From Perognathus longimembris pacificus (taxonomy: Eukaryota > Chordata > Mammalia > Rodentia > Heteromyidae), in contig NC_063188.1 of assembly GCF_023159225.1 (NCBI RefSeq), positions 14,777,086 to 14,841,085 of the forward strand: a stretch of 64,000 bases of DNA, in the 5' to 3' direction. This document shows positions 1 to 29,502 of this stretch, in pieces (position 1 is the first letter of the stretch; each line of letters begins with the position of its first letter). The notes beneath the pieces were generated by a model. The model was not told the origin of the DNA, ran no database searches, and saw only the letters and a list, made by a program, of their open reading frames with translations. The position numbers and the translations under genes were made by a program.

Positions 1-50
1 GCCATTGCCGTGCCGTCCCGCCATTGCCGTGCCGTCCGCAATGCTGGTGC

Positions 51-66
51 GGGGGGGGGGGGGGGG
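51..66 (+). repeat. Poly-G run
   Basis: Sixteen consecutive G within the first unit of the array. It is a potential quadruplex former and an assembly-error hot spot. Confidence 0.9.
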
Positions 67-618
67 TGTTGCGCTGGGACGCCGCCGCCATTTTGTGGAA
101 TGCCGGCCTTGTGTGGGGTACCGTCTGCAATGCTGGTGAGGGGTGGGGGGGCGGTGTTGGAACGCCGCCGCCATTTTGTGGCGTACCGACCATGTGTGTG
201 GTGCCGTCTGCAATGCTGGTGGGGGGTGGGGGGGCGCTGTGGTGGAATGCCGCCGCCATTTTGTGGCGTGCTGTCCTCAATGCTGGTGGGCGGGGGGGGC
301 GCTGTGGTGGAAGGCCGCCATGTGTGGGGTACTGTCTGCAATGTCGGTGTAGGGCAAGATGGGTGGTGTTGACACAAGTGGGTCACATCTGAGGTGCCGT
401 CTGCAAAGCTGGTATGGGGCGGTGCCGGGGGCTGGGCGGAAACCATGTGTGGGGTGCCGTCAGCAATACTGGTGTGGGGAAGGGAGTGTGTTGACGCTGG
501 AAGGCCATGATATGTGTGGGGTACCGTCCGCCATGCTGAAGCTGCAAGGCCGCACGCAACATGTGGAGTGCCGTCCGCCATGCCAGTGCGGGGTAAGGGG
601 GGGGTGTGCTGACGTGAG

Positions 619-714
619 GCCGCCATGTTTAGAGCGCCGGCCGCCATGTTTAGAGCGCCGGCCGCCATGTTTAGAGCGCCGGCCGCCATGTTTAGAGCGC
701 CGGCCGCCATGTTG
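619..714 (+). repeat. 21-bp tandem repeat, four full copies plus a partial one
   Basis: Units start at 619, 640, 661, 682 and 703. The four complete units appear identical and begin GCCGCCATGTTT; the last partial unit reads GCCGCCATGTTG, a full match to the YY1 site GCCGCCATNTTG. Each unit carries a CpG-containing motif in the same orientation, about two helical turns apart. Confidence 0.95.
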
Positions 715-1100
715 GTGCGGGGCAAGGGAGGATGTTGACACTGGAAGGCCATGATATGTGGGTGCCATCCGCCATGCCGGTGCGGGGCAAAGAAGGTTGT
801 TGACGCTAGAAGGCCGCGACACTGGGTGCCATGTGCAATACGGGTACAGGGCTAGGGCGATATTGGAGGGTAGCATTTGTAATTCTGATACAAAAGCCGC
901 ATTGCTGCATGGGGGGGGGGGGCGGGTTGACTGGCGCAAGAAGGCCACAACAAGCTGGAGATGGAGGCTGCTGTCTGCAATTCGGGTCTGGGGGTGAAGC
1001 CGGTCTGGGGGGAGGGGGGCGCTGAGGTTGAGAAGATCAAATGTAGGCTTACTGCCCACAATACCAGGATGGGGGCAGGGGGCGCAATGAGGAGGGGATA

Positions 1101-1370
1101 TCTTATTCTTCCAGCGGCTTCTGGTAATTAGGTGGGAAGGGGCGTGCCTGAGGAGGGGCAGGGCCATAAATTCTCACAACCACCATTTTAGGTTGGTAGC
1201 ACCAGCTCACATATTCAAACGGGGAAGCTAAGTGAACTTGCCTAAAAATCTGAAGGCTGTAATTACTGAGAGGAATCTGACTCGGAAAAAAAATACAAAT
1301 ATTTCCCCTTTAAAATGGTGTTTATATTTCCTAGTTTTTTTTCTTTGTTTTTTGTTTGGTTTATAATTTT
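1101..1370. other. Transition from GC-rich array to AT-rich DNA, no gene seen
   Basis: Base composition falls sharply here. No recognised repeat or exon is visible. Confidence 0.5.
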
Positions 1371-1371
1371 T

Positions 1372-1530
1372 AAAAAACTTTGGCTGGGTACTGGTGACTC
1401 ACATGTCTTTAATCTTAGCTCTTACCTTCAGTTAACCACCAGAAAACTGGAAGTGGCTCAAAGTTGTGACTTGAGCAAAACCGTTTCAGGGACAGTGCCC
1501 AGGCCCTGAGTTCAAGCCACACACAACTGA
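1372..1530 (+). repeat. Deleted 7SL-like/Geo composite SINE
   Basis: A short 7SL-like head (GGTGACTCACATG) runs into AGTTAACCACCAG and then the Geo tail with CAGGGACAGTGCCCAGGCC. The middle of the head is missing. Confidence 0.6.
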
Positions 1531-1539
1531 CTTTTTTTT

Positions 1540-1890
1540 TTTTTTGTATTACTGCTGTACTGCATTTAGAACTGATTTTTTTTCATGGTCCTGAGTACAG
1601 GGCTTTGTGCTTGTAGGCTAGTGTTCTACTATGAGCTGTGCTTCCACGTTTTTTCATGTGCTTCTCAACCTCCAGTACTGAGATTTGGGCTTGGGTCCCT
1701 CCTAGTGAGTGAACAACCTGGCTGGTACTGTACCACTTGAGCCATACCTCCAGCTTGACTTTTTTCTGGGTTTCTCTTTGAACATCAACTTGGCCTCCTC
1801 TTGTTCTGTCTACTGAATGTTGGTAAAACTATAGACTAATTGTACCCTAGCCACCAACTTAAATTAATTCTCTGGCTACATTTTTTTAAG
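1540..1890 (-). repeat. Old, fragmented SINE remnants
   Basis: Decayed antisense tRNA- and 7SL-like SINE phrases (for example CCACTTGAGCCATACCTCCA near 1734) without clean ends. Confidence 0.35.
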
Positions 1891-2107
1891 ATTTATTTAT
1901 TTTACTTTTTGACCAGTCCTGGGCCTTGGACTCAGGGCCTGAGCACTGTCCCTGGCTTCCTTTTGCTCAAGGCTAGCTAGCACTCTGCCACTTGAGCCAC
2001 AGTGCCACTTCTGGCCGTTTTCTGTATATGTGGTGCTGGGGAATCGAACCCAGGGCCTCTTGTATACGAGGCAAGCTCTCTTGCCACTAGGCCATATCCC
2101 CAGCCCC
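1891..2107 (-). repeat. IDL-Geo SINE
   Basis: Full antisense dimer: T-rich tail, CCAGTCCTGGG at the Geo end, antisense B box GGAATCGAACC, ending CCCCAGCCCC. The flanks TCTGGCTACATTTTTTTA and CCTGGCTATATTTTTTTA form an imperfect target-site duplication. Confidence 0.9.
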
Positions 2108-2149
2108 CCTGGCTATATTTTTTTAAAATTTTGAGATAATATTTTTTTT

Positions 2150-2370
2150 GTCAGCCCTGGGGTTTGAACTCAGGGCCTGGGCACTGTCCTTGAGCTCTTT
2201 TGCTCAAGGTTCGCCCTCTACCACTTTGAGCCACAGAGCCACTCTGGGATTCTTCTGGTGGTTAGTTGAAGATAAAAGTCTCACAGACTTTGCTGATGGC
2301 TTTGAAATACAATCTTCAGATCTCAGCCTCCTGCCTAGGACTATAGGCCTGAGCCACCAGCATCTGGCAT
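2150..2370 (-). repeat. 7SL-like/Geo composite SINE
   Basis: Antisense Geo tail (CCCTGGGGTTTGAACTCAGGG) followed by the 7SL-like head ending in GCCTGAGCCACCAGCATCTGG. Confidence 0.8.
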
Positions 2371-2473
2371 ATTTTATTTTTATTAGTTTACAATTTCCCT
2401 GCTATGGTGCTAGCTGTCCACTCATAGGGAAGTCTCCTTGAAGATATGGGCAGAACCCACAATGGAATGGTTC

Positions 2474-2531
2474 TAGCTGGGTGTACAGCTCTCAAGGGAT
2501 AGAGCACTCGAGTTCAAGATCCCAGTACTGC
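2474..2531 (+). repeat. ID-like SINE fragment
   Basis: Short tRNA-like piece with GGGATAGAGCACTCGAGTTCAAGATCC-type arrangement; degraded. Confidence 0.3.
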
Positions 2532-2919
2532 CAAAGATAAAAATTCTGGGCTGGTTAGCCTATTGTGGTATGTAACATGAAGAGAGTGGGAACCAATTTA
2601 TGATCTAGACAATTTTAAGACATGCTTAAAGTGAGATAACAGGTCTTTCCTAGAGGCAAGCCCCTTTTCTGTCTCTAGTGCTATGGATAAAGGTGGTGTT
2701 GAAACCCTTTCCCTCAGTCTCTAGAAATCCAAACTACCAGACGTGGTAGGGTCACTTATTGAATGCTGCAGACTTTTATTTCAAAGAAAAAAAAATGATT
2801 TTTTTAACACCAATATTTCGGCTTTTATTTTAGGAAAGACAGTAGCTGACAGCAGAAGCAATACCAGGGTGATTGTAGAAAACAAACCACAAGGAGTGAC
2901 TCTTTCAGGTAAGAGAATG
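2532..2919. other. Non-coding stretch
   Basis: No gene or clear repeat recognised. Confidence 0.4.
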
Positions 2920-3122
2920 GGTTCTAGCTGGATGCTGATTGCTCCTGTCTGTAATCCTAGCCACGGAGGAGGCTGAGACCTGAGCATCACGGTTCAAAGC
3001 TGGCTGAGGGAGGGGGGTGGCAGAGGGAAGAATGTGATACTTATCTCTAAATTAACCAAAAAGTCAGAAGTGGAGTTGTGGCTCACATGTAGAGTGCTAG
3101 CCTTGAGCAAGAGATGAAAGAG
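2920..3122 (+). repeat. 7SL-like/Geo composite SINE
   Basis: CTGTCTGTAATCCTAGCCAC head, ATTAACCAAAAAGTCAGAAG junction and a Geo half cut short after GCTAGCCTTGAGCAAGAG. A purine-only tract of about 60 bases follows. Confidence 0.7.
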
Positions 3123-4100
3123 GTAAAAGGGGGAGGGGAGAGGATGAGAAAGGAGAGGAAAGAGGAGAGAGAGGTATTCTGGGTTTTGGAAACAGTTTGA
3201 AAGCCACCTCTGTGTAAAAAGGAGGAATGTTAAAGGAAACATGGGCTTAGTGAGTGGCAGGGAACAGGAGCTTACTGATGTATCCTACTTTAGGGGGTTA
3301 TTTTGCTAGGGGTCCCGAGGCCTTTGTAGACATGGCTGAGACTGAGACTGTTCTCTGAAGCTAAAACATAGCTTATTTTCACTGTGGAAACTCACCTGGT
3401 TTTTAACAAACTTTTTCAATGTATTATGGCACTGTCAAAGTTGTCAGTGAACTCAGTCATGGCAAAGATTTGGGGTTTGCATGCTAAGACTAACACTCCT
3501 TGACCTGTTTCTTCCACTCTTGTTTCATGCAAAAGAAAGACAAGGGTAAATGGATTGGGGCAAGATAAACCGGTCTATTATGGAAAAAGTGCTAATGTCA
3601 AGTGGGTTGCATTGAATACTGTATGTGATTAATGTTCTCTCATCCTTATTCAGATCAGAGTCACTGCTCAGTACACCAGCCAAACCACATGGTTTGATTG
3701 GTAAGCTCTTCTGTATTTGCTGTTGTTTTCTAAGCTATCCAATTACTTTTTTCAGATGTGTAGTCGTCCTGTGTGTAAATTTGGTTTTACCTTTGTTATT
3801 ATTTTTCCTGCAAGGTATACTGTTTTGCATATCAATTTGGAATTGAAGCTTCCACTACATTGCAATATCAAATTTCAGAGCCAAGGATCTTCTAATCAAA
3901 GTTTGTACTTTGGGAGTTGTTTCCCATTGTGGTATATGTTCTTGAATGTGGTCTTTTCCAGTCACTTGTCTTGCAACTTTTGCTTATTGGTAACATTTAT
4001 AATCGATTGCATTGTATAGGTCTAACTCAGAACCTTAAAGATTTCCTCTGGGCTTTTTTTAGGTGTCAATTGGACCTCAGTTCAAATTCATTTCACCAGT
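3123..4100. other. Non-coding stretch with a purine tract
   Basis: A purine-rich tract lies at about 3112-3175; the rest has no recognised gene or repeat. Confidence 0.4.
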
Positions 4101-4108
4101 GTCACTCT

Positions 4109-4222
4109 ATTTTTTTTTTTTTTGGCCAGTCCTAGGCCGTGAACTCAGGGCCTGAGCACTGTCCCTGGCTTCTTTTTGCTCAAGGCTAGCACTCTGCCAC
4201 TTGAGCCACAGCGCCCCTTCTG
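4109..4222 (-). repeat. 5'-truncated IDL-Geo SINE, Geo half only
   Basis: A T-run and GGCCAGTCCTAGG begin an antisense Geo monomer that stops at CTTCTGG, before any IDL sequence. GTCACTCT occurs on both sides (4101-4108 and 4223-4230) as a short target-site duplication, so it inserted in truncated form. Confidence 0.8.
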
Positions 4223-4230
4223 GTCACTCT

Positions 4231-4929
4231 TGACCACTAATGTTTTGAGCCTCAGTTTTCCATATCTGCAAAATGGAAATCATATGTTATCAGTGATCCT
4301 GTAAGAATCAACTGCAATCATCTTTGTAATGTAATGCACACAGCACTCAGAAATTGGCCTTCAATTTCTGAACACATAATGGAATAAGATACTCTGGTTT
4401 AGCCCCCTCCCTGCTCCTTCTCTTTTTCTTTCCTCAGGTATGCCTTATTCCTCCATAGGTTACACTGATTTCTCCAGAAGCCAGAATTTTGTAATCTTGC
4501 TGTGAAGTGAAAAGTGCCTCCGAAGTCCAGATTTTTTTCCTTGGAGTAAGGTTAGTTGTATTGTCCCTTATGTAGACACTTTGCACCAAGGCTGGCATAG
4601 AGTACTACCTGGTAGGGCTTTCTAAATGTGTAGGCTAGAAGGTGCCTGTTAACTGCCAGTCCTAGAAATTCCTTTTCTCGCCTGTAAAAATTGACTTCTG
4701 GGCTGTGATTATAGTTGAGATTAGATAAAGATAACAGACAATGTAAGAAAAGATGTAAAAACTTTTAAATACAAATAGCCACTAGGCTTCTCAAAGAGAA
4801 TTTTAACTGACATCTCAATAGATCCACACTTTTCTGTTAGTACAGATGTTACTCTGGTAGTATCATGTAACTTGGAGTTTACTCAGATAAGGGAAGTCAA
4901 ACCCCATTTTTTAAACATAAGAAATGAAA
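4231..4929. other. Non-coding stretch
   Basis: No gene, RNA gene or clear repeat seen. Confidence 0.4.
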
Positions 4930-5074
4930 GTGTCTGTCAGTTGGGCACTAGGCACTCATATCTGTAATTATGTCTACTCAGTGAAGCTAAGATCTGAGGA
5001 TGGAGGTTCGAAGCCAGCCTGGGTAGGAAAGTCTGTAATATTCTTATCTCCGGTTAACCAAAAAACAGTGACTG

Positions 5075-5075
<1 letters not shown>
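4930..5075 (+). repeat. 7SL-like SINE head lacking the Geo half
   Basis: Contains AAGATCTGAGGATGGAGG and TTATCTCCGGTTAACC, then passes directly into the CA microsatellite. Confidence 0.65.

Positions 5076-5108
<33 letters not shown>
5076..5108 (+). repeat. (CA)n microsatellite
   Basis: About sixteen CA units grown at the 3' end of a SINE. Confidence 0.95.
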
Positions 5109-5116
<8 letters not shown>

Positions 5117-5340
5117 GAGAGAATTCTTGTGCAGCAACATATTGAGATTTCAAAGCCTTTTGATTAACCCTGGAATTAGTTAATTTAAATCCCTGGGTGG
5201 CAGAGGTCTTGTTATTCTTTTGGTAGATAATGGAAGCCAGAATTATTTAGAAGATGCTTTACTTGGAGGAGCTGTGACAGTTCCTTCATCCTGTGGTGTT
5301 ACAGTGACCTTACCACACTCAGCTAATCAAAAAAAAAATG

Positions 5341-5430
5341 AGGGCTGGGCATGTAGTTCAGTGGCAGAGTGCTTGCCTAGCATGCATGAGGCCCTGAGTT
5401 CTATTCTTTGGTACTACGTGAACAAAAAAT
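5341..5430 (+). repeat. ID-type monomeric SINE
   Basis: GGGCTGGGCATGTAGTTCAG and GTGGCAGAGTGCTTGCC mark a tRNA-Ala-like ID element without a Geo half; its B box is mutated. Confidence 0.75.
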
Positions 5431-6477
5431 AAGTAATTTTTAATTAAAATATTTTTTAAACCAGAGAGTTAACTGTGACACTTCCTTATGTTTCCCCAGG
5501 TACTTGTACCCATTGCTCTTCGTATCTTGGATCTCTTCTTTGGGTAGTTTGGAGAAAAATAGGTAAGTGGTTAAGTGGATACTTCTGTTAACTATTGATA
5601 TCTCAAAATTGCTTTATGTCCAGGAATCCTTATAGAGTAAATCTCCAAGTAAATAACTGGAAATTCAGAAATGTAGGTAAAGGGGAAAGGGACTATAGTA
5701 TTCAGAATTTAGTTTGGAACCTAGCCTTTTTATTTCAGAGAAGTTCAGTCACTTATCCTTATTATTTGAGGTCTATTTGGTTAATAGTTACAAATCATTT
5801 GGAATTTTAATATGCTAGAAATGAATGTTGTGATTTTCATGCTTCCTGACTTGAGAGTTTGGATTGAAAAGCAAATTTTGTAATCATGATAGGTCAAGCT
5901 TATCTTATAAAACTTTTAATTCATGAAGACAATCACTATACAAAAGTTCATAGGCTCAGTTTTCTTTTAAAAACAAATTCCAGTTATTAAATGTGCTTAT
6001 AAAGAAAGTCTGTGGACTACAAACGATACTTTTTTTCCCTTTAAACAACTGGCTCTCCACAGGAAAGTTAAAAACTGATAGCAGGCAGGACTTTGCAATT
6101 TCTCAGGTGTTAATACTCCCACTGTGGCCAATTTTAGTTTACCAGTATGACGTAACTGAATAAGATTTTAGCTCATGATTTCCTTCACACAGCACTTAAA
6201 TAAACTCAAGTAACAGGCAATCCATCTGTAGAATTATTATTGTAGAGCTTATACTTTGATGTTCTTCTGAGTAGTCTTTGTGAAAATATGCATATTGGTT
6301 CTGGGAAGAAAAGTTGTAATGGGTTTTATGTAAGTAAATTATGCTTTCTCATTCAGGCATCTGACTTCATCCCTAATTTTCAAACTCAAATATCATAAAA
6401 GCATGTACTTTAAAGATACTACTTTTTCTTAGACCTAATACTCCTTTTAGTGACCTTTTAGTTCATAAATTGCTGGA
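5431..6477. other. AT-rich non-coding stretch
   Basis: No recognised gene or repeat in this kilobase. Confidence 0.4.
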
Positions 6478-6800
6478 AAGGGGATGTGCATCTGTCATCA
6501 TAGCCATTTGGGAGTCTGAGATAGGGAGGGATCAGTCTGGGCAAAAACATTCGTGAGACTCCCATCTTAACAGGGAAAGCTAGGCATTAACTGTTGTATG
6601 CCTGCCATTCTAACTTCAGTGGGAAGATTAAATTGAAGTAATATTGCCTAGGTTTGCCTGGTCAAAAAGCAAGATCTTATTTCAAAAATGACCAGAGCAA
6701 AAAGGGGCTAGAGATGCAGCATCAAGAGTAGAGCACCTACCTAGCAAGTGAAAAGCTCTGAGTTCAAACACCAGTACTACCAAGCAGAAAGAAAAAAAAA
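6478..6800 (+). repeat. Old B1-like plus ID-like dimeric SINE
   Basis: Decayed 7SL-like sequence joined to an ID-like end (GGGGCTAGAGATGCAGCATC, GAGTTCAAACACCAGTACTA) and an A-rich tail, resembling the B1-dID arrangement. Confidence 0.5.
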
Positions 6801-7814
6801 TTGTGTGGTTCATATTTATTGTTCAATAACAGCATATGTGTAAGTGATGTGAAAACTATGATCTTCACAGGAATGTTGTACTTTGTTGTGGAACTTGAGG
6901 CAACAGAATTATAGATCTGTTCATGGGCAAGTAAACATAAATATGAGAGGCTTTTTTTCTGACTTGGTCCTGTTGTATCCCTATTATCTGGAATTGACTT
7001 GAGAAATAAACTGCCTTTTTGTGGAGGGATTTAGGTCTGCTTGAGGCATCAAAAGAGACATAAAGCACTACTAGCCAATTATGAGACATAACATTTAATT
7101 ATTTGTGCCCAAGGCCTTGAAGGAGCTGATTAGGTTACCCCACCTCTTACCTGGATCAGTTGAACACTCTGGATTGATATCCCTGAAGATCTTAGGAGAG
7201 GCTCTTGCTGTTGCTCTATTCCTCAAGAGCAGAGCTGGAAACTTTCACCTAAACTCTTCACAGGGTCTAAGGGGGAACTCTACTCCCTTGCTTTGGTCCT
7301 CCTCCTGTTGATGAAGTGATTGAAATCTGGGACAGAAATTCACAAGAGGAGACAGGGCAAGAAATGCTGCTGAAAATATGGTGGAGTAGTGAGAATTGTT
7401 TATGATCCACAAAGGGATATAAATGTGTGACCTGCTGTTAAAAGTAACATTTGCTCTTTAAATTTGATCTTTTCACAACAGGTCCCATTTCACTGGACTA
7501 CTGGATGCCTGACTTTAAAATTCTTTAGGAGGTAAGAATAAGAGTTTCTGAAGAGACTCTACATGATGTATTGCATATTGTATACAATGTATTTATGTAT
7601 GTGTAAATATATAAGTATAGTCATAAAAACATTTAAAAATAAAATGCAAATATATTTACATGTTTTTAAAGTATAACTAGATAATAAAAATCACATACTT
7701 ATATGTAGCATAAACAAATTAAGTAATGAGTTATATAAAATATGTAGATATGTATAAATGTATATCATACATATATGCATGCAGGCATAGAACGGTTGCA
7801 AATGAAGTTCTTCA
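6801..7814. other. Non-coding stretch with an AT-rich zone
   Basis: About 7600-7780 is AT-rich with repeated TATGTA/TATATA steps. A short open frame at 7105-7311 has no recognisable domain. Confidence 0.4.
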
Positions 7815-8070
7815 CAGATGCTAGTGGCTCACACCTATAACCTTGAAATGGGGAAGGATTGAGGTGAGAGGCCCCGGGCAGAAAAGTCTTCGGGCCTCTG
7901 TCTTCCAAGAGAAGCTGGATTCAGTAGCACAAGCTGTGATCTTAACAACGATGGGAAGCCTAAAATAGGCAGATAGAGGCTCACATACATGCCTGTGTAG
8001 GAAGTGAGGCCCTGTCTCAAATATAACTAGCATAGCTGGAGAACCTGAGTTCAGATTCCAGTACTGAAGG
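7815..8070 (+). repeat. Old B1-like/ID-like SINE
   Basis: Starts GTGGCTCACACCTATAACC and ends near GAGTTCAGATTCCAGTACTG; strongly diverged. Confidence 0.45.
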
Positions 8071-8280
8071 GAAAAGGGCTTGGTTGTGAGTGGTGCTTAT
8101 TTAATCTAAATATACATTCAAAGGAACTACGTCTTATTGCTTAAAACCATGGTTGGCACCAAGCCACCAGGAAACCCGAAAACTTAGTAAGCCTAGATTC
8201 TCTTGGATTTTTGACCAAAGGAGTCAAGATGGATGGTTACAGAGGGGTAGATCATTTGAATGCATCAACCCAGTAGATTT

Positions 8281-8508
8281 TTTTTTCTGGTCCTGGGGCT
8301 CTAAAATAGGTCGTGGATGCTATCTCTGAGTTTCTGTGCTCAAGGCTAGCACTCTACCACTTTGCGTCACACCTCCACTTTAGGTTTTGGGTGGTTAGTT
8401 GGTGATGAGTCTCATGGACTTTTCTGCCTGTGCTGGGTTCAAACTGTGATCCTTAGATCTCAGCCTCCCGAGAAGGTAGGATTATAGGCGTGAGCCACCA
8501 GAGCCTAA
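8281..8508 (-). repeat. 7SL-like/Geo composite SINE
   Basis: Antisense copy from CTGGTCCTGGGGCTC to TATAGGCGTGAGCCACCAGAG; the Geo half is diverged. Confidence 0.75.
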
Positions 8509-9067
8509 CTCCAGTGGAAATTTTAACTCTGCTCCTAAGTAAAAATCTCCTTCTCTTCTCAGCATTTCTCATTTTCAGTGTTCTATAAATGTGTCTTCCT
8601 TTTATAAAACATAGTGTAGGTTATAAATGTCATGGTACCATAGTAGAATATTTGAAATTCTATAGCAAATGCTTTCATTGAGATTTCTTTTTTCTAGAGG
8701 CTCTAATAATGACTTTTTCAAACGAATGTGCTCCTACACATTGCCCCTACACCTATAACTTACATTTGAACCTAGAAATGGATTTTGTCTTAATTTCCAA
8801 ATGTCTTATTTTGTGGTGGTTAATTCGGCGCATCTTATGACATAAATACTGCCCTTTAGAATCCTTTTTTTCTCTACTTGCTAATTTATCATTTATCATC
8901 AGATTTAAGATATGTATTTTAATAAAATAAAAAATTCTCCATCAGTGAGTGCTGATATCAACCCTTACATGTAATTTCAAAGTAAACTCTGCATATCACC
9001 CATAGGCATTTTTAACTCTTTCAGCTTTTTCATATTCCATATCCTTTCCTGCTGTCAATGTGTATTT
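8509..9067. other. AT-rich non-coding stretch
   Basis: Nothing recognised. Confidence 0.4.
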
Positions 9068-9205
9068 TGTGCTGGTACTGAGGCATGACCTCCTGGCATA
9101 GGTGCTTATCCTTAGCTTTTTTTGCTCAAGGCTGGTGCTCTGTCACTTGAGCTCTACTTGAAGCTTTTTGGTGGTATTTATTGCTTGGGTCTGCAGGTTC
9201 AGCAA
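9068..9205 (-). repeat. Old partial SINE
   Basis: GCTGGTACTGAGGCATGACC and TTGCTCAAGGCTGGTGCTCT identify an antisense Geo-type half with a degraded remainder. Confidence 0.5.
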
Positions 9206-9234
9206 TACATACCACAAGTTTAGGCCCAGAATTT

Positions 9235-9325
9235 GATCTCCAGGACGATTGGAAAAACAACAAAATCCCCTTCTCTTTTTGATCTCCAGGACTATTGGAA
9301 AAACAACAAAATCCCCTTCTCTTTT
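9235..9325 (+). repeat. 46-bp tandem duplication
   Basis: TCTCCAGGACGATTGG at about 9236 recurs as TCTCCAGGACTATTGG 46 bases later, and both copies continue through the same ACAACAAAATCCCC segment. Nearly identical copies imply a recent duplication or an assembly artefact. Confidence 0.9.
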
Positions 9326-9329
9326 AGAG

Positions 9330-9795
9330 CTGAGTGTTTAGATCGCAGGCCCAAACCCCTGGGCTCCCATATGTCAGGTTAGGCCATTTACCTCTATACA
9401 CTAAAAGACATAGTGAAGGATACAGAGTAGATTCATTATGTCATAAGCAGCCACATGAAGATAACACTGCTTTAGTATACAGAATGGGATGTGACTTTAG
9501 CAAACAACTGGGGGGCCCGTGGGAGTAACAATATGACAATCTTAGTCACAGGAGGGCTTGGTTAACTATTCTCTTAGTCCTTGGGGGAGGGCTCAGGAGT
9601 TGTTAAGGCTAGTCCTTTGGAGGCTCTGATATTCCCTTCCTTTGAACCATTTTTTTCAGCCCTCCTTGCAAAGATACTAATAATTCGTGTTCTTCCTAGA
9701 TTCCAAGCTGACTGTGCAGTGAATGGCTTAGACAAAGACAGACGTAAAATGGAGGCAGATATGCCTAGCTTTTTGCTTTTAGTTAATTCATAATC
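9330..9795 (+). repeat. Unidentified interspersed repeat, copy 1
   Basis: Shares ordered blocks with 13840-14690 on the same strand: CCATATGTCAGGT, AAAGACATAGT, ATACAGAATGG, then a stretch around CAGCCCT and a block near TGGCTTAGA...AAAGA...GGAGGCA. The order and length suggest an old LTR or similar element, but the family was not recognised. Confidence 0.55.
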
Positions 9796-9799
9796 CCAA

Positions 9800-10275
9800 G
9801 TCAGTGCTATTCAAGTAAAACAATTTTTATGAACCTGTTAATTTTTCCCATTTATTGATCAAATGATTCTTAATCTCAAAGGAATTTGTGTGTTGTCCAA
9901 TCTTACCGTGTAGATTTCTTGGCCAGTGATAAGCTTATACTCACAAGAGGACAAATAGCTGAAATATATATATGTCATAAATAACTGAAGACTAAACCTA
10001 GAAACAACATTACAAAGCAAAATACAAAAGAGAGTCAAAACTAGAAGGCATCCAGTTAAATTATGTAAGAGATTTACATTTAAATAACTCAGTGAGTTTT
10101 AGACAACTTAAAAAGATAGTGTTTGAAGCAAGTAGAACTAGTTGTTCTTTGGTCTCTAGTTAAATAGAAGTCTTTGGCCAAAAATGTACATTTGCCTTCT
10201 GTTAGAGGTACTTGGAAGGGCTTTAAGGTCAGCTAGCTCTGCATCTAGTGAAGATAGTGCCAGTGACCCCAAATA
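9800..10275. other. Non-coding stretch
   Basis: No recognised gene or repeat. Confidence 0.35.
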
Positions 10276-10278
10276 GCT

Positions 10279-10365
10279 CCCTTCTCCTCCCTTCCCTCTT
10301 CTCTTTTCTCTTCTTCCTTTCTTCCCACTTCACTTTTCCTTTCCCTTCCCCCTACCCTGTCCCTT
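10279..10365 (+). repeat. Polypyrimidine tract
   Basis: Some 85 bases almost entirely C and T (CTCCCTTCTCCTCCC and onward), a mirror-like tract of the kind that can form triplex DNA. Confidence 0.85.
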
Positions 10366-10383
10366 AGCTTTCTCCATGCTCCA

Positions 10384-10515
10384 CTGTGCGAATCATAGCT
10401 CTACTTCTAGTTGTTCGGTGATTAATTGGAGATAGTCTCACAGCTTTGAACCACGATCATTAGATCTCAGCCTCCTGAGTAGCTAGGATTACAGGCATGA
10501 ACTGGCTCCTGGCTC
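10384..10515 (-). repeat. 7SL-like/Geo composite SINE, mostly head
   Basis: GATCTCAGCCTCCTGAGTAG and GATTACAGGCATGA are the antisense 7SL-like head; little of the Geo half remains. Confidence 0.65.
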
Positions 10516-10800
10516 TGCATTGGTTTTTGAGGTAGAGTCTCTGTACTTGAGCCAGTTTGGGCTATGATACATACTGCTTGGGTTTCCTTTTGTAGGTAGG
10601 CATGACAGGCACATGCCAGTGTGCTTCCCTAGGATAAAAAAGGAGGAAGCCACCTCACCCAGTTTGTTGATGGAGATGGAATCTCATGAGCTTTTTATCC
10701 AGGCTGGTGATTAATCTCAACAAACCTTTATATCCCCCATCTCTACCTCCCAAAGAACTTAGAAGTACAGGCTTGTGTCATCAAACTTGGCGTAGATACT
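10516..10800 (-). repeat. Old B1-like SINE remnants
   Basis: Two diverged antisense 7SL-like segments (near GGTAGGCATGACAGGCAC and CCTCCCAAAGAACTTAGAAG). Confidence 0.4.
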
Positions 10801-10810
10801 GTTAAAATTA

Positions 10811-10885
10811 CAGGGTTGTGGATTTAGCTCAGTAGAAGAGCACCTGCCTGGCAATTGCAAGGCCCTGAGTTAGCTTATCGGCCTT
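10811..10885 (+). repeat. ID-type SINE
   Basis: GTGGATTTAGCTCAGTAGAA is an ID A box; the element ends soon after AAGGCCCTGAGTT. Confidence 0.65.
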
Positions 10886-11032
10886 GAAAAAAAATTGCAG
10901 CCAACTTAATCTCATACATGAGCTTTTAAAATAGTTTCATCTTTCATACTTTAATATAATTTTTAAGACCTACTCATATACCTTTTTGTGGGTTTTGGGA
11001 TTTTACCTCTGTAACTTTTTTCCTCTGTGTCT

Positions 11033-11064
11033 GTGCGTGCGTGCGTGCATGCGCACGCACGCGC
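11033..11064 (+). repeat. Alternating purine-pyrimidine palindrome
   Basis: A GTGC/GCAC run in which GCGTGCGTGC (11039-11048) and GCACGCACGC (11053-11062) form a perfect 10-bp inverted repeat around a 4-base loop. Confidence 0.9.
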
Positions 11065-11280
11065 TGGTACTGGGGCTTAATCTCTGGACTAGGGCACTGT
11101 GCCTTACCTTTTTTGCTCAAGTCTGGTATTTTGCCATTTGAGGCAGTGTTCCGCTTCCAACTTCTTTGTGGTTATAGATGAGTCTCCTAGACTTTCCTGC
11201 CCACTCTGGTTTTGCATCTTAGGTCTCAATCTTCTGAGTAGCAAGGGCTAGCATTACTGGCATAAACAACCAGCATCCAC
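11065..11280 (-). repeat. 7SL-like/Geo composite SINE
   Basis: GGTACTGGGGCTTAATCTCTGG at one end and ATTACTGGCATAAACAACCAGC at the other; diverged. Confidence 0.65.
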
Positions 11281-11431
11281 TTTCTTTTTTCCATTTTGGA
11301 ACAGTCCTTTAGGCCAAAGTATGTTTTACACAAAATTTCTCTCATTTAAAAGATTTTTTCCTTTAACTTTTTCTACAAAAACATGTCTTTACATCTTGCT
11401 TCATCTTTTCTACTTGATACATTTGTATTTC

Positions 11432-11645
11432 TTTTCTTTTTTTTTTTTTGCCAGTCCTGGGCCTTGGACTCAGGGCCCAAGCACTGTCCCTGGCTTCTTT
11501 TTGCTCAAGGCTAGCATAGCACTCTGCCACTTGAGCCACGGTGCCACTTCTGGTCGTTTTCTATATATGGTGTTGGGGAATCAAACCCTGGGCTTTCATG
11601 TATACAAAGCAAGCACTCTTGGCACTAGGCCATATTCCCAGCCCC
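11432..11645 (-). repeat. IDL-Geo SINE
   Basis: T-run, GCCAGTCCTGGGCC, antisense B box GGAATCAAACC and CATATTCCCAGCCCC end. TGTATTTCTTTT and TGTATTTTTTTT flank it as a likely target-site duplication. Confidence 0.9.
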
Positions 11646-11751
11646 TGTATTTTTTTTTGTATTTGAAATTAGAATTTAGATAAGATTTTTTTCTACTCTC
11701 AGTGGTCTTATTTTAATGAAGACCCAAGGAAAAAAGCAATCTTTGTTATTG

Positions 11752-11982
11752 TCTTGGCTGGTACTGAAGCTTAAACTCAGAAATTTTGTGCTCACTTGGT
11801 TAGCTTGTTCATGTTTGCCCTTCCATTCCACCATTTGAGCCATGTGTCCACCCATGTGTTTTATTGGTTATTTGGAGACAGAGTCCCTTTGACTTTTCTA
11901 CCTAGACTGGCTTTGAACTATAAACCTTCTAATCTCGTTTCCTGAATAACTGGGATTATAGGCATTAGCCTCTGGCAGGTGG
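11752..11982 (-). repeat. Old 7SL-like/Geo composite SINE
   Basis: GGCTGGTACTGAAGC, CCACCATTTGAGCCATG and CTGGGATTATAGGCATTAGC preserve the antisense order. Confidence 0.6.
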
Positions 11983-12206
11983 ATAACAAAAGCAATCTTA
12001 AGCTTCTTCTCTATGCAAAAACAAATTATAAAATTTATTTACATTTATATTTGTTAATATGCCCATATGTTAAGAGTGGGTCCAAATTACACCAGAATAA
12101 AACAGATCAAGACTTCTGTCAATCTTAACATCATTTTTCTCAAGTCCTACATTTGAGAGTTAATTCCAGTTAAACTGGAAAACTGGTTTTCTGTAAGTGA
12201 CAGATG

Positions 12207-12252
12207 AGGAAAAAAGTAGTAAGGCATAAGAGGAAAAAAGTAGTAAGGCATA
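12207..12252 (+). repeat. 23-bp tandem duplication
   Basis: GAGGAAAAAAGTAGTAAGGC occurs twice in direct succession in otherwise unremarkable DNA. Confidence 0.85.
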
Positions 12253-12394
12253 ATGTAGAGAGGACTGGATTATCTTTGTTCATATATGTGTAAGGGCATG
12301 TATGTAATTTTAAGAAATTAGAATTGGAAGGACAAAGGGTGAAGAAACGCAGCAATGGTACTCATTAGATGTTATATTAAAAATGAACTACACA

Positions 12395-12545
12395 ACTTGT
12401 GGGTGGGAGGGGAAAACTAGGAGAGAGTGAAGGAAAGAGTAATATTGTCTTGAAAGAAATGTACTCATTACTTGACTTATGAAACTAACCCCTCTATACA
12501 TCACCTTTATAAGAACAATTTAATATTTTTTAAAGAAAATGATAA
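12395..12545 (+). mobile_element. L1 3'-end fragment, old
   Basis: GGTGGGAGGGGAAAAC, AAATGTACTCATTACTT and CCCCTCTATACATCACC match in order the L1 3' UTR fragment at 61250-61646. Heavily 5'-truncated and decayed. Confidence 0.6.
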
Positions 12546-12611
12546 AAAATGAGACATCCCATAAATGCCCATTTAGGAATTCATGAACTCAAATGTTTCT
12601 TAGGGGGATGG

Positions 12612-12836
12612 GAACAGCCCTGGGGCTTGAACCTTGGGGTCTGGGAACTATCTCTGAGCTTCTTTGGTTCAAGGCTAGCACTTGAGCCCACAGCTCCACT
12701 TCTAGCCTTTTCTGAGTATTTATTGGAGATAAGTGTCTCACAAACTTTTGTGCCTGGGCTGGCTTCGAGCCACGGTCCTCAGATCTTAGTTTCCTGAGTA
12801 TCTAGGGTTATAGGCATGAGCCTCCACTGCCTGTCC
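12612..12836 (-). repeat. 7SL-like/Geo composite SINE
   Basis: CCCTGGGGCTTGAACCTTGG, the antisense head TTCGAGCCACGGTCCTCAG, and TATAGGCATGAGCC are all present. Confidence 0.75.
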
Positions 12837-12839
12837 CAT

Positions 12840-13385
12840 AAGTGTAGTTTTGAGGTGCTTAGCAACCACCTCACACCAGAAATGCACATTTTTTATGTTG
12901 TGGCCACAAGTGAACATTTTTTTTCTAGGAGTTTTAGAAGATTGAGTTGTGTCCAACAGTGTTTTTTAGAAGTTAATTTGGGAAGTTTATCTTGGTGGCT
13001 GACATACAAACGTGTCAGGAAAGTGGTTTTGAGTTCATTTCCAATAGGGCTGTTGGCATAACCATCAGAATTTTAGCCTTCACCAAGCCAATCATCACAG
13101 ACTAATAGACATACAAAATGACACACACAATTAATTCAAAATGCACTTTTAGACAAACTGCCCTTTGCCTTTTTCTTTTTCTCTTTTAGTGGACTAGTCA
13201 GCTAGAGTTCTCCCTAAGGGGCAAGATACACTTGGTGCTTTTCATTCTTGAGCAGATCACAACAGAGATAGATCTCCAACACAAACACTCTGCTTTCTCT
13301 GAGTTCCTGACTTCCCTTCTCTGCTAATTGCCAACACAAGTTTTCTAATGAACTCAAATGCTCAGCAAAGCCTCTGAACAAGAGA
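12840..13385. other. Non-coding stretch, possibly internal to an old LTR element
   Basis: No gene. GGACTAGTCAGCTAGAGTTC and neighbours lead into the duplicated block at 13388, which may belong to the same old element. Confidence 0.3.
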
Positions 13386-13387
13386 TT

Positions 13388-13566
13388 CAAATTTCCTTGT
13401 CAGACTAATGGCAGAAGTCCAAATAGTTCAACGGAACCCAAAAGGGGCTCTGGAGAGCCTCCAAACCACAAGGAATTCAAAGCTTCCCTGGAAGATGAAT
13501 GGCAAAAGCCAAAATTAGTTCAACAGAACCAAAAATGGACCCAAAAGAGCCTCCAGACAGCAAGGA
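13388..13566 (+). repeat. Imperfect tandem duplication of about 88 bp
   Basis: TTCAAATTTCCTTGTCAGAC...TTCAACGGAACC...GAGCCTCCAAACCACAAGGAA is followed directly by a diverged copy (TTCAAAGCTTCCCTGGAAG...TTCAACAGAACC...GAGCCTCCAGACAGCAAGGAA). Indels separate the two. Confidence 0.7.
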
Positions 13567-13839
13567 AATAAAAGGGGAGGCCAAGGCGCACTGGTTGGAG
13601 AGAACTGAACAAGATTAGAATTCAAGGCCCTTAGTATTCAAATGGCCATTACTCTGCTCTACCAGAGCACACATGGCTAATACTGGCCAAAGGGGAAAAA
13701 TAGGAAAGAATCTCTGGAATAAATGTAATTCTAGTAGTTGTGTAGAAGAAATTCTATCTTTCCTCCTTGGTCCAGGGTTGACTTGTTGCTTGTGAAGTAG
13801 CTGGTACCACATGAGTATATTTTCTGGCTTGCCAAGGCT

Positions 13840-14690
13840 AAAACGAGTGTTAAACCCCAAGTCTCCAAACTCCTGGCATTCCATATGTCAGGTCTTGTCA
13901 CTCACCACACATGCAAAACCAAAAGACATAGTAAAGGGTAGAGAAAGGTATAAGACAGCACTTCAGTTCATCTTCAAGATACAGAATGGATTTTGGGTGA
14001 TAGTTTTGTGTGTGTGTGTGTGTCTTGTACTGGGGCTTGATCTCGGGGCCTTTTGCTTTTCCTTGGTACTCTGCCACTGGATCCACACCTCTAGGTGCAG
14101 CTCTTTTTGTTTGTTTGTTTAATTGGATTTGTATGCCCTGGCTAGTTTCAAATTGAAGTCATCATATCTCAGCCTCCCAAGTAGTTGTGGTTATAAGGGC
14201 TAGCTAGCTACCAGTGCCTGGCAAACTAGGCTTACGTAGACAAAAGAACTGGAGGAAGCTGAAGGAGAGGTATGCATAATTATCAAACAGCCCCAGTCAC
14301 AGGTGTATCCCAGTGCTCTAAAGTGACTGTAGATTGTCTGGCAACTCATAGTCTTAGAATTAGTCAGGGGATTGTCTTTTTTTTTCCTGAAGTTCCAGAG
14401 TTGTTCTAGCCATCATCACTTGAGATGATTGATTTAGTTCCCCTGAGATTACTCCTGGTGGTGGGTGCAGCTTTATCATTATAGGTACTTGCCCTCTTTT
14501 TAGGAGGGAGGGATATTTTCAGCCCTTCATCATAAAGATGCTGTGTATAAGTCAGTCCTTCCTGGAATTCATGATGATTATACAGTGACTGAAGAGAGAC
14601 TGGCTTAGAGCAAAGATAAATACAATGTGGAGGCAAAGAAGCCACATTTTTCTCCTGCTTTTTATTAATTTCTGGATACAAGTAGGGAGT
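13840..14690 (+). repeat. Unidentified interspersed repeat, copy 2
   Basis: Second copy of the element at 9330-9795, interrupted by an antisense SINE at about 14024-14224. It extends further than copy 1 and may be the more complete example. Confidence 0.5.
14008..14224 (-). repeat. (TG)n and old composite SINE inside repeat copy 2
   Basis: A short TG run is followed by TTGTACTGGGGCTTGATCTC and the antisense head ATATCTCAGCCTCCCAAGTAG. Confidence 0.65.
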
Positions 14691-14699
14691 TGGGTGCTT

Positions 14700-16945
14700 T
14701 TAAGCAAATGCAGCTTTTAAGCACCTGTTACATTTTTAGTGTGGAATTCTCTAATTTCTTATTCTATAGCTGAAGGGCTATTGATAAAACAGCTGTGTTT
14801 GAAGGTAATAATTGTTTACCCCAATCTGTTTAGTGCCAGTAAACTGACAACCTGTCTGACATAAGTTTTCTGACTCTTATTCTCTTAACCTGTTTGGATT
14901 GCATATGCACATTAAAAACTTAGTTCAGGGCTTATTCTCATATTGTTTCCTGTTCTTGGAATAATATCTCTGTCATCTGTAGCTCATCTGTAGTCTCTTT
15001 ACCATGTATTATCTGGCCATTGTACAAATCTGTACTGACATGAAAAAGGCCAGAGGAGGGATTAGGGATATGGCTGTTTTGTTACTAGGACAAATTTAGG
15101 AAGAAAAGTTACATAATTAGATGGCTAATGTTGTCGTTACTTAGACTAAGTAGTATGCACTGTTTGTGAAATTCAGTCATTAGAAAGACTTGGCATCAAT
15201 CTAGAATTTAAAGTTTTATGTGTAGGGTTTCTTAAGTGCTTGTTTCCATAGGTGGATTAGGATTAGGGTTGAGGCCTTAGAAGTGAAAAGGGGAATGATG
15301 TGAATGTACATAGTGGAAGCCAGTTGAAGTTTAACCTTCCAGGAGCTTCTGGGCATATTTAATAAGCATGCTTTATATACATGTAATTAGAAGGTAGTAA
15401 AGAGTACACAGTACCCTTTGAGGTCTGTATCTGGAGCTAATTCTTTAAATCAGCACTCAGAAGTGTTACTATAAGGTATAAACAAAAAAGGAAATGTCTT
15501 AGGCACATGTTTTCTAAGTAATTTAGGAAATAAATAGAACCATTGGTTGCCATTGGAGAAGCATGCATTATTTCTTAAGATCCCATGAAATGGCTTTGGA
15601 CAACCATCATGTCCCCCTTGATTAACTCAGCAAATAAGTGTGAGTTTAGTAAAATAATAGGGCAGACTGAGGGCATTTAATAACTTACTATTTCGTCTAT
15701 ATATTGAAATGAGTAATGAGTGACTTGCAAAGCCAAAGCCCATGTTAACTCTGTGGATAGACTACCAGTTTTCTGTTTAGAAATGGATTCCCACCCCAGA
15801 TTTTATACTAAAAGCCACAATTAGTTTGCATGTTGTTGTACACACTGATTGCTATACTCCTTGCCATAAAATATTACCCTTGTTAATTGCAATTTCTTTG
15901 AGAGTCTTTCCATTCAAATTATTCATCCTACTTTTGAAAGGATTCAGTGAATATCAACAATGTAATAAATGCTTACAGTTTTTCAGAAAACTGTATTTCA
16001 AACCCTTTTATAAAGTAATCTGAAAACAAACACAGGTTGGCTGTCATTCTGACTTGTTGGGCAATTTAGGCTAGTCTGTGTTTATAGACTGTGAAGAATG
16101 CTCCCAAAGAGGGTGGAGGTTACCCAGATGGACCTACAAGGTTACTTTTAGAGCATGCAGTTTGGTGAAAAGGCTAAATTGGTGATAGAATTAGAAACTA
16201 TCTACAGAGGACATTTAAAGGGTTTGGATTTTTTCTTGGATCTGATGAGGTCTAAGATTCTTCATGCCAAAGGACATAGCTTACTTCCCTGTTTATAATA
16301 GGCATTGTGTGTTTGCCACACAATCTGAAAAAGTAGTGTTAGTTCAGCTTCATAGTATTCTTTAAAATGTAGTAATGTTTTCTTTATACATCATTTATAA
16401 AATGCTCTGTCATGTATAATTCTATTTTTATTGAAGGGCAAAAGTAGAGTCTTCACCCAGAAATGGTTAAGTGTAAAGTTAAGTATCTGGTAATGTGAAT
16501 GTTCGTAGGGTGGGCTCTTTCCCATCCAGTGTACATTTATGTGCACATGTGTGCTTATATTTATGTGTATGCATGCCCACCCACAGACAGAGATGATTCT
16601 ATAGCAGATTACACCATTTGTAAGGCCAAAACTTTTACTTGCAGGGCTGCATTTGTTCTAGTACAGTAGTTTATTGGTTACAGATCAATTTGATAGCATG
16701 TTGACATTGTATATCATTTTCTTTGAGAAATAGGCCTTTATACTTAATTGATGGACATTTTCGATTTTCTAGGGGTTTAAGGAGTACATTAACCAGTTTA
16801 AGAGTTTTACTCCATTAATATCTAAGCAGTTATCTCTATTAGATCATAAGACATTTTTCTGCTTACCATGTACTCTGGTTCTTTTAAGCAGGCATGCGAC
16901 TTGCATTTCTTTACCTACCAAGGTCTCATTTCCTGAAATTTAAAA
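14700..16945. other. 2.2 kb without SINEs or genes
   Basis: AT-rich sequence with no recognised repeat, exon or RNA gene; the longest SINE-free run in the left part of the window. Confidence 0.5.
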
Positions 16946-16949
16946 GTGT

Positions 16950-17035
16950 TATTTTTTCCAAGATGGAGTTTTACTGTGTCTCCCAGCTTTGTGACACTCC
17001 CACCTAGGCAACACAACACCTCAGCTGGCTAAAAC
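16950..17035 (-). repeat. B1-like remnant
   Basis: AAGATGGAGTTTTACTGTGTC resembles an antisense 7SL-derived end; short and degraded. Confidence 0.3.
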
Positions 17036-17067
17036 TAGAATTTTATTTATTCATTTGTTTTTTGTTT

Positions 17068-17306
17068 TTGTGCTGGTACTGGGGCTTGAATGCAGGGCTG
17101 AGGTGCTGTATCTTGGAGTTCTGTTTTCACTTAAGGCTGACGCTTTACCATATGAGCCACATCTCCACTTCTGCCTTAGTCTTAGTTACATGGAGGTAAG
17201 AGTCTATTGGATTTGTCTGTCCAGATTGGCTTCAAATCTTGATCCTCTGATCTCAGCCTTCTCAGAAGCTAGGATTAGAGGCTTGAGCCACGAGTAGAGC
17301 CTGGCT
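17068..17306 (-). repeat. 7SL-like/Geo composite SINE
   Basis: GTGCTGGTACTGGGGCTTGA to AGGCTTGAGCCACGAG, with CCTCTGATCTCAGCCTTCTC in the head. Confidence 0.7.
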
Positions 17307-17356
17307 TTGATCCTCCCTCCCCCCCTCTATGTTTCCCTTTCCCCCCATCTCTTCCC

Positions 17357-17542
17357 TTGCCAGTCCTAGGGCTTGAACTCATGGCCTGGGCACTGGCTTC
17401 TTTTGCTCAAGGGTGTAGCACGCTACCACTTGAGCCACAGCACCACTTCTGGCATTTTCTGTTTGTGTGGTACTGAGGAATCAAACCCAAGACTTCATGC
17501 ATGCCAGACAAGCACTCCACCACCAAGCCACATTCCCAGCCC
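17357..17542 (-). repeat. IDL-Geo SINE
   Basis: TTGCCAGTCCTAGGGCTTG through GAGGAATCAAACCCAAG to ACATTCCCAGCCC; a deletion shortens the Geo half. Confidence 0.85.
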
Positions 17543-17544
17543 TC

Positions 17545-17705
17545 TTTTCTCATAGTGGATTCTCTACCAACTGAACTACACCTGCAGCCCAGCCTTTTCA
17601 CTAATCAGAGATTATTGTAGACTTTTTTGTCCTCTGGCTTCCAACTGCAGTTGTTAGATTTCAGCTTCCCTGAGTAGTATGACAGGAATGAGCCGCCCAC
17701 GCTTA
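17545..17705 (-). repeat. SINE fragments
   Basis: A partial ID (ACTACACCTGCAGCCC) and a partial 7SL-like head (GATTTCAGCTTCCCTGAGTAG region). Confidence 0.4.
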
Positions 17706-18875
17706 AAATTAGTGTGTTCTAATGGCCTGATCCCTAAGATCCCTTTTGTTGCTTTGTTTACTCAGCATAGTATAAACCATCAAGCAAGATAGAACACTGA
17801 GTAGAAGCTGAGAAAAAGAAACAAAGGACTCAAAGACTTCTATTAGATAATTTGAAGATCAGAGATTTAGGGAAAGAATCTGTGATTCTTGATGTGAATG
17901 TATTGTAGCACTAAGGCTGCCTCTGTGTATGACACTTGATAATAGAGTAATAATTACCATGTTAGTCCTTTTTTGACTACTACTTTGTTGGGCTACCTGT
18001 AAACAGTTTTTTTTTTAAGAAATTAAATCCTTTCAACCAAGTATTTATTGGGTCAAGTTACTTTTAGTGGCTGCAGGAGGTGGATGAAATGATACACCTC
18101 ATATGAAGAAGCTATGAATTATACTTCATACAAATGTTTTCAAGTAAATCCAATTTAAGTGTTTATGGTGTTAGAGGCTGTATGGAAGACATTTCAGTCT
18201 TAGTAAAACTGTCCCTAGGCTGCTTCTATCTATTTAGCATTCTGATATTCATCTGCTCGAGTTTGTTTTAGATTTTATCCAAAATGATTTAATTTTGTAG
18301 TAAAGAATTCTATACAAGCCTGAAGCTTGTATCAGGCTGTCCAAATAAGTACTTTCATTCTGTAAGGTTTTCTCCTAAGAAGTAGAAATTCATCGGTATG
18401 GAATAACAACATTTTTAAACTATTGAAAATATCTTCATACCACTCCAGAGCTTAAGTATGTCAGCCAATAATAATTAAATGGTACCTAAACAAAGATTTC
18501 TGGGAAGAGAAAATTACCTAGATTAAAGAATTTGAAAGATAAATGAGATCATCAACATTCTATCCTTCATATGAGAAACTTATGTAATCCACAGAATATT
18601 GACTAGAAAATTAAAGAAATTAAATGTTAGAGAGGGCAAAGCTGTAACACGATGAGAATACTGCAAAGACTGTATGCTAGAGCCTCCAAGAAAATGCAGA
18701 CACAAAGCTAGAGGGTATGATGACTGCATGGGTTCCTGACTATGATAAATGCAAGAGTTCTTAACAGATGGATAGCTATACCTAGAATCTTCTGACACAA
18801 AGAGGACAGGGGTGTCACACGTTTTCTTAATTATTAAAACCAATTGAAATAAAAAACGGCTTCAAAACATACAAA
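17706..18875. other. Non-coding stretch
   Basis: No recognised gene or repeat over about 1.2 kb. Confidence 0.45.
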
Positions 18876-18880
18876 TGTAT

Positions 18881-19078
18881 TTTTTTTGCAAGTCCTGGGG
18901 CTTGAACTCAGGGCCTGGGCACTGTCCCTAAGCTTCTTTTGCTCAAGGCAAGCACTCTGCCACTTGAGTCACAGCATCATTTCTGGCTTTTTCTGTTTAT
19001 ATGGTATTGAAGAATTGAACCTAGGGCTTTATATATGCTAGGCAAGCACTCTACCACTAAAACACATTCCCAGCCCCC
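18881..19078 (-). repeat. IDL-Geo SINE
   Basis: T-run, CAAGTCCTGGGGCTTGAA and ATTCCCAGCCCCC. AAATGTATTTT and GAATGTGTTTT flank it as an imperfect target-site duplication. Confidence 0.85.
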
Positions 19079-19420
19079 GAATGTGTTTTGACCAACAGCT
19101 TCTCTCATGTTTCTCCTTTTTCACAACCCCTTCATATCTCTTTAAGCTGTTCTAGCTCTTTCCTTATCTCCCTGCACTGACTTAATAACCAGTATTCAGT
19201 TTTCCGTATGTTTTTGTTTTCTACACTTAGTTCACCTATCCTATTTCCTTTTTGGTAGAATTTATGCCACTATTAGTTTTTTCTACCAGTTACCTCTGCA
19301 ACTTCAGCCACTGTACATCAATTCCATCTTTTGTTGTGCCCAAACTGCAGGCTTGGCATGCACATTAATTTTGTACATTTGTCTTTGCTTTCATTTCTGC
19401 CCCATTTACATTTACTCCTC
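19079..19420. other. Pyrimidine-rich non-coding stretch
   Basis: No gene seen. Confidence 0.35.
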
Positions 19421-19433
19421 CTCAACTGTACTT

Positions 19434-19628
19434 TTTTGGCCAGTCCTGGGGCTTGGACTCAGGGCCTGAGCACTGTCCCTGACTTCTTTTTGCTCAAGGC
19501 TAGCACTCTGCCACTTGAGCCTCAGCGCCACTTCTGGCCATTTTCTGTATATGTGGTGCTGGGGAATGGAACCCAGGGCCTCATGTATATGAGGCAGGCA
19601 CTCTTGCCACTAGGCCATATCCCCAGCC
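19434..19628 (-). repeat. IDL-Geo SINE with exact target-site duplication
   Basis: CTCAACTGTACTT occurs at 19421-19433 and again at 19629-19641. The body keeps GGCCAGTCCTGGGGC and CATATCCCCAGCCC, so this is a fairly recent insertion. Confidence 0.93.
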
Positions 19629-19654
19629 CTCAACTGTACTTATGATCTTACTTT

Positions 19655-22645: not shown

Positions 22646-22647
22646 GG

Positions 22648-28055: not shown

Positions 28056-28070
28056 AGAATCTACTTCTTG

Positions 28071-28505: not shown

Positions 28506-28509
28506 AAAT

Positions 28510-29500: not shown

Positions 29501-29502
29501 TT

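Follow-up and report, generated by a model that had tools for sequence, protein, structure and literature searches.

A same-orientation array of putative YY1 sites in the probable first intron of Usp26, most likely X-linked, in Perognathus longimembris pacificus

A CpG-rich tandem array in the genome of Perognathus longimembris pacificus, a geomyoid rodent related to kangaroo rats and pocket gophers, carries YY1-type sites that share one orientation. It lies in what is probably intron 1 of Usp26, a gene that synteny places on the X chromosome. This is probably a further instance of a known layout. The reading favoured here, with moderate confidence, is that of a minisatellite confined to one locus, in which about a dozen same-facing putative YY1 sites in probable Usp26 intron 1 act through YY1 occupancy on a promoter with TATA and CCAAT boxes. 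The alternatives weighed against it are not all mutually exclusive. Positions refer to the window, that is, the whole stretch of 64,000 nucleotides that was analysed; features in the 10-kb left flank (L023) receive the L023 position minus 10000. On the assembly the array corresponds to C28:14776613-14778280, its left part being L023:9528-10000. Feature coordinates are collected in the table.

The YY1-type sites are far too numerous and too uniformly oriented to be expected from base composition. In positions 1-1200 of the window, the exact pattern GCCGCCATNTT occurs eight times on the + strand (three copies of GCCGCCATTTTG and five of GCCGCCATGTT) and not once on the - strand, against a mean of 0.0025 and a maximum of 1 in 2000 dinucleotide-preserving shuffles, none of which reached eight. 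The shorter core CCGCCAT gives 13 against 0 (shuffle mean 0.118, maximum 2), and both patterns are absent from either strand of window 1201-64000. The claim of an earlier note, that the window edge holds a CpG-rich array of same-orientation YY1-type motifs, is thereby confirmed, including the excess over shuffled sequence that it had set as the test. The scan was extended to 264 kb, comprising 150 kb of left flank, the window and 50 kb of right flank, with 571 N. Within the full array, ten matches of at least 11/12 lie on the + strand and none on the - strand, whereas the other 262,332 bp hold three, with at most one per 1668-bp window per strand. Looser cut-offs give 14:1 at 10/12 or better and 17:3 at 9/12 or better, and a JASPAR-type YY1 matrix finds 13 array sites at p<1e-4, all on the same strand. 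Apart from the array, these 264 kb contain a single exact GCCGCCATNTT, at window coordinate -88695 on C28. Across the whole 2.21-Gb assembly there are 2848 exact GCCGCCATNTT, about 1.3 per Mb, and 85 copies of the pattern read backwards. The last site of the array, ACCACCATTTTA at 1179, looks CpG-decayed. Helical phasing of the sites was considered and rejected: ten sites give R 0.74 and P 0.002, and counting the 21-bp burst as a single event gives P 0.14.

Table. Features of the array, its upstream neighbourhood and the downstream gene, in window coordinates
Feature	Position	Strand	Remarks
Second tandem array	-2609..-1510 (L023:7391-8490)	+	~1.1 kb
Promoter-like block and probable non-coding exon 1	-817..-608	+	left of window
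CpG-rich tandem array	-472..1195; in-window part 1..1195	+	~1.67 kb; edges set by eye
Further perfect YY1-type site GCCGCCATTTTG	start -131	+	
19-bp sub-array	-20..37		TRF
83-bp units	29-269		TRF
Three perfect YY1-type sites GCCGCCATTTTG	within 84..263; starts 84, 167, 252	+	steps 83 and 85 bp
21-bp unit GGCCGCCATGTTTAGAGCGCC	618-713 (feature 618..714)	+	4.6 copies at 100%, TRF
YY1-type sites in 21-bp units	starts 619, 640, 661, 682, 703	+	
Last YY1-type site ACCACCATTTTA	1179..1190	+	right array edge
Candidate non-coding exon	2679..2908	+	splice scores
Shorter version of this exon (tttattttag/...CAG/gtaaga)	2834-2908	+	by eye; own acceptor below score cut-off
Candidate non-coding exon	5500..5562	+	score only
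Candidate internal exons	7482-7531, 23458-23679		splice scores
Probable last exon of Usp26	46773..49626	+	acceptor ttatctctttag before 46773

The array has the composition of a CpG island, as the earlier note had described, with a GC content of 0.63 and a CpG observed/expected ratio of 0.68, compared with a ratio of 0.18 in window 1201-64000. The GC skew of the + strand is positive in every 100-bp step from -500 to 1199 (0.15 to 0.46), and four G4 patterns occur on the + strand and none on the - strand. Because the array is cut by the window edge, its length had been left open; leftward extension adds about 470 bp, and the total of about 1.67 kb is not that of a huge satellite. Seventeen diverged units were aligned across the array. 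Divergence among units was thus seen correctly in the earlier note, and its range of 46-88 bp proved slightly too narrow, since the units span 44-129 bp. A typical unit has two boxes, one close to GTGCCGTCTGCAATGCTGGT and the other a YY1 box close to GCCGCCGCCATTTTGTGG, as well as a G-run; tandem repeat analysis also identifies sub-arrays of 19, 83 and 21 bp. In every 21-bp unit, the stretch GCCGCCATG is also similar to a Kozak start context; this would be irrelevant in an intron and relevant if intron 1 were retained. A coding role for the array was rejected. The - strand open frames 3-851 and 460-1173 are both without a Pfam match, and no homologue of the former was found at E<=0.001 among 7995 candidates scored. 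Rfam at its gathering threshold gives no match in the window.

A serious rival is a neutral GC- and CpG-rich minisatellite that expanded beside an unmethylated germline promoter, in which the unit held a YY1-like core by chance and YY1 may bind without consequence. It is a possible explanation that we judge rather unlikely. The identical 21-bp copies, which come in bursts, together with the different array found across the promoter, suggest a slippage-prone locus. Beyond their first 20 bases, seven of the 17 units have a YY1 box scoring 10/12 or better and ten do not, while the other box reaches at least 15/20 in 16 of the 17; this comparison is biased, since the other box served to locate the units and also encloses the sites at 527, 703 and 768. 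Even so, the comparison does not point to selection acting on each of the YY1 sites. Against neutrality, two different sub-arrays, of 83 and 21 bp, both multiply a near-perfect YY1 site in the same facing, and the position after a promoter repeats the layout of Peg3 and XIST.

Directly to the left of the array lies a promoter-like block. Within L023:8501-9450, CCAAT occurs at L023:8541, 9085 and 9183 and TATAAA at L023:9218. By eye, an initiator-like CCACTTC follows about 30 bases after the TATA box and places the putative start near L023:9245-9252. The CpG observed/expected ratio is 1.00 in -752..-608, and -748..-608 contains no ATG; the probable exon 1 is listed as non-coding. This exon would end at L023:9392, with a donor GT at L023:9393 (-607; AAA/GTAAGT, score 5.4). 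Its end is uncertain because a second donor inside it, at -730, scores slightly higher (5.7). About 135 bp at 31% GC separate the probable exon from the array. If the longer exon and the initiator chosen by eye hold, the array would lie in intron 1, about 0.45-1.95 kb after the start. Promoter-, exon-1- and donor-like elements are found directly upstream of the array, which may therefore be a first-intron CpG island adjacent to its promoter.

The promoter-like block is flanked by two one-strand arrays. The second array, upstream of the block, has a 28-bp unit (CACATCCGGGCTAC...) and a higher-order period of 101 bp. In it, ACATCCGG occurs 23 times on the + strand and never on the - strand, compared with a mean of 0.11 and a maximum of 3 in 1000 shuffles. 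The reverse complement of this motif, CCGGATGT, resembles what we take to be an ETS-type site, and the second-array sites are possibly of this type.

A dispersed repeat offers a different explanation, namely a LINE-1 5' UTR with YY1-bearing monomers, read on the - strand. Monomers of the mouse L1 Tf 5' UTR carry functional YY1 sites (PMC11602158), and, as tandem units with a YY1 site that drives transcription, they share the architecture of the array. The window itself contains a LINE-1 at 33750-40000 on the + strand, in which ORF1 (34856-36121) and ORF2 (36122-40000) are long open frames and the CpG-rich 5' end has the YY1-type site AAGATGGCGCC near 33780. In the 2.21-Gb assembly, however, window 1-1200 and the 1061-bp promoter block (L023:8500-9560) each match their own locus only, at the sensitivity of the search, and no transposon family is therefore seen. 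The search skips simple repeats and common words; consequently, this result excludes a recognisable dispersed family and not every distant relative. Compared with the rest of the window, the array gives nothing beyond short G-run or chance matches of up to 23 bp, and the sequence on its left is promoter-like and not ORF1. The array thus differs from a dispersed transposon family such as L1 Tf, and the LINE-1 explanation, refuted at this search sensitivity, is given practically no weight. Between the array and the Usp26 open frame there are also near-perfect two-copy tandem duplications at 9232-9325 (46 bp), 12206-12253 (24 bp) and 43545-43635 (44 bp).

The one-locus array is followed, about 46 kb downstream and on the same strand, by an open frame of 924 amino acids (46852-49626) with UCH_N and UCH domains. 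Among the best 120 of 320 matches, the closest are USP26 of Dipodomys spectabilis (76%), Thomomys bottae (74%) and Castor canadensis (48%), and the first match named USP29 ranks 65th. In a tree of 18 proteins, of which 16 were chosen from the 120 listed matches and two come from the same genome, the open frame falls in the USP26 clade (100/100), while a gene on another contig, C20 (G000:C20:26304802-26307318), groups with USP29 and represents the Usp29 of this genome. The C20 gene is an intronless open frame of 862 amino acids whose branch is long, at 0.88 changes per site, and its start has no obvious methionine; it may be decaying, or its start may lie elsewhere. The USP29 query also matched six pieces on C4, which are probably Usp37 exons. 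Between 46600 and 46860, the highest-scoring acceptor is that at 46773, which precedes the ATG by 79 bp.

Further to the right, L028:6853-7401 (window coordinates 110853-111401, + strand) encodes a heparan sulfate 6-O-sulfotransferase, which resembles the HS6ST2 isoform. USP26 and HS6ST2 are presumably neighbours at Xq26.2. The location of USP26 at Xq26.2 has been reported (PMC4055479), and Hs6st2 has been called a neighbour of Firre (PMC6985041). Since Usp26 and then Hs6st2 lie downstream of the array, the locus is most likely X-linked by synteny, which supports an earlier guess. The same genes dispose of the idea that the array is the Peg3/Usp29 imprinting control region itself. A like layout and a USP gene downstream speak for it, and it is refuted by the identity of that gene as USP26, the presence of Usp29 on C20 and the HS6ST gene as neighbour; virtually no credence is left to it.

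We infer that the promoter-like block belongs to Usp26. Mouse Usp26 has nine exons, with the open frame in exon 9 and eight exons before it (PMC6760205), and an upstream promoter is therefore expected. Splice scoring with relaxed cut-offs gives four candidate internal exons in -800..46860, while strict cut-offs list none. These candidates would also fit if the promoter and array formed a non-coding RNA gene of their own ahead of Usp26. This alternative is distinctly unlikely: the promoter-like block and the Usp26 open frame lie on the same strand, the mouse gene has its eight exons ahead of the one with the open frame, and the only CpG-island-like stretches between window position 1 and the open frame are the array and the 5' end of the LINE-1, at 33751-34250.

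X-linkage by synteny, CpG-richness and a position inside a probable gene are also features of the X-linked architectural repeats DXZ4, FIRRE and ICCE, tandem repeats with YY1 sites within genes. A repeat of this type would be accessible on the inactive X, with both CTCF and YY1 bound to it. A CTCF matrix, scored against a 42% GC background that flatters G-rich motifs, gives 91 matches at p<1e-4 in all 264 kb, of which five are in the YY1 array (1.67 kb) and six in the upstream array (1.1 kb); four of the five overlap the YY1 sites at -131, 84, 167 and 252. The scores in both arrays are weak, at 6.5-11.0 of 26 bits. Those in the YY1 array reach 6.5-10.0 with none at p<1e-5, and the single match at that level (11.0) is in the upstream array. 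Weak as they are, CTCF-like matches occur at a higher density in the two arrays than around them. DXZ4, FIRRE and ICCE have paired CTCF-YY1 sites, whereas this array is just 1.7 kb long with units under 130 bp, and an architectural role of this kind is very improbable. Consequently, where a YY1-bound regulatory or architectural element had been suggested, the DXZ4-like architectural part is weakened, and the regulatory part fits because the array is located 3' of promoter-like sequence, as are the YY1 clusters of Peg3 intron 1 and the XIST CpG island.

A close comparison for the array in probable Usp26 intron 1 is the mouse Peg3-DMR, in which seven YY1 sites lie in a 2.5-kb region of intron 1 behind a 1.5-kb promoter, and YY1 sites within an imprinting control region are described as all facing one way (PMC5526879). 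Both loci combine a CpG-rich promoter, promoter-like sequence in the present case, with same-facing YY1 sites, which lie in intron 1 of Peg3 and probably in intron 1 of Usp26. Clusters of the Peg3-DMR type are reported to have 4-10 sites, and the array has ten at 11/12 or better in 1668 bp, with the uniform orientation counted above. Usp29, the paralogue of Usp26, is transcribed from the Peg3 region. The Peg3-DMR differs in being autosomal, with a bidirectional promoter and seven sites of the form GGCGCCATCTT (PMC2615030) in its 2.5 kb, while the Usp26 array is X-linked by synteny with sites GCCGCCATTTTG and GCCGCCATGTT. Mutation of the Peg3-DMR YY1 sites lowers Peg3 and Usp29 expression and leaves methylation intact (PMC5526879). 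In reporters, activation by the Peg3 YY1 sites depends on their orientation, although YY1 knockdown had pointed to repression (PMC2615030). The CpG island of XIST contains five YY1 sites, and its hypersensitive site lies about 1.4 kb downstream of the promoter; the island is bound by YY1 on the unmethylated inactive X, and YY1 alone is insufficient for expression from P2 (PMC4363909). XIST shares with the array its X-linkage and a CpG island that carries clustered YY1-type sites beyond a promoter or promoter-like sequence. It differs in that the XIST cluster is inside a non-coding RNA gene, while the array probably lies within an intron of a protein-coding gene.

The proposed mechanism is modelled on the orientation-fixed YY1 cluster of Peg3 intron 1. 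YY1 would occupy the array when the array is unmethylated, and the bound protein would keep the CpG-rich gene start open and raise transcription from the promoter. The G-rich non-template strand, with its positive GC skew and G-runs, may help through R-loops. By analogy, the array would be expected to activate and open the Usp26 promoter, and imprinting or escape from inactivation at Usp26 would be possible.

A few monoallelic loci, namely Peg3, Gnas and XIST, are known to have clusters of YY1 sites close to their promoters, and Usp29 is an imprinted paralogue of Usp26 in mouse. In the open literature searched, articles that mention both Usp26 and YY1 describe, by title or the start of the abstract, no YY1 sites at Usp26. 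A bolder reading, which we consider unlikely, is that the Usp26 promoter independently gained a YY1 cluster of the Peg3/Xist type, and that an X-linked testis gene thereby came under epigenetic one-allele or silencing-resistant control. If this were true, the sister genes Usp26, on the X, and imprinted Usp29, on an autosome, would have converged on a switch composed of a promoter and a YY1 array. YY1 motifs are over-represented in elements that remain accessible through X inactivation, and in mouse cells YY1 binding has been described as an obstacle to the silencing of X-linked genes by Xist (PMC11094009). With a dense natural cluster at an X-linked gene of the ordinary kind, one could distinguish whether such a cluster is sufficient alone or needs an imprinting context. 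The outcome tested there would be silencing resistance or one-allele behaviour, and the paralogy of Usp26 and Usp29 would sharpen the comparison.
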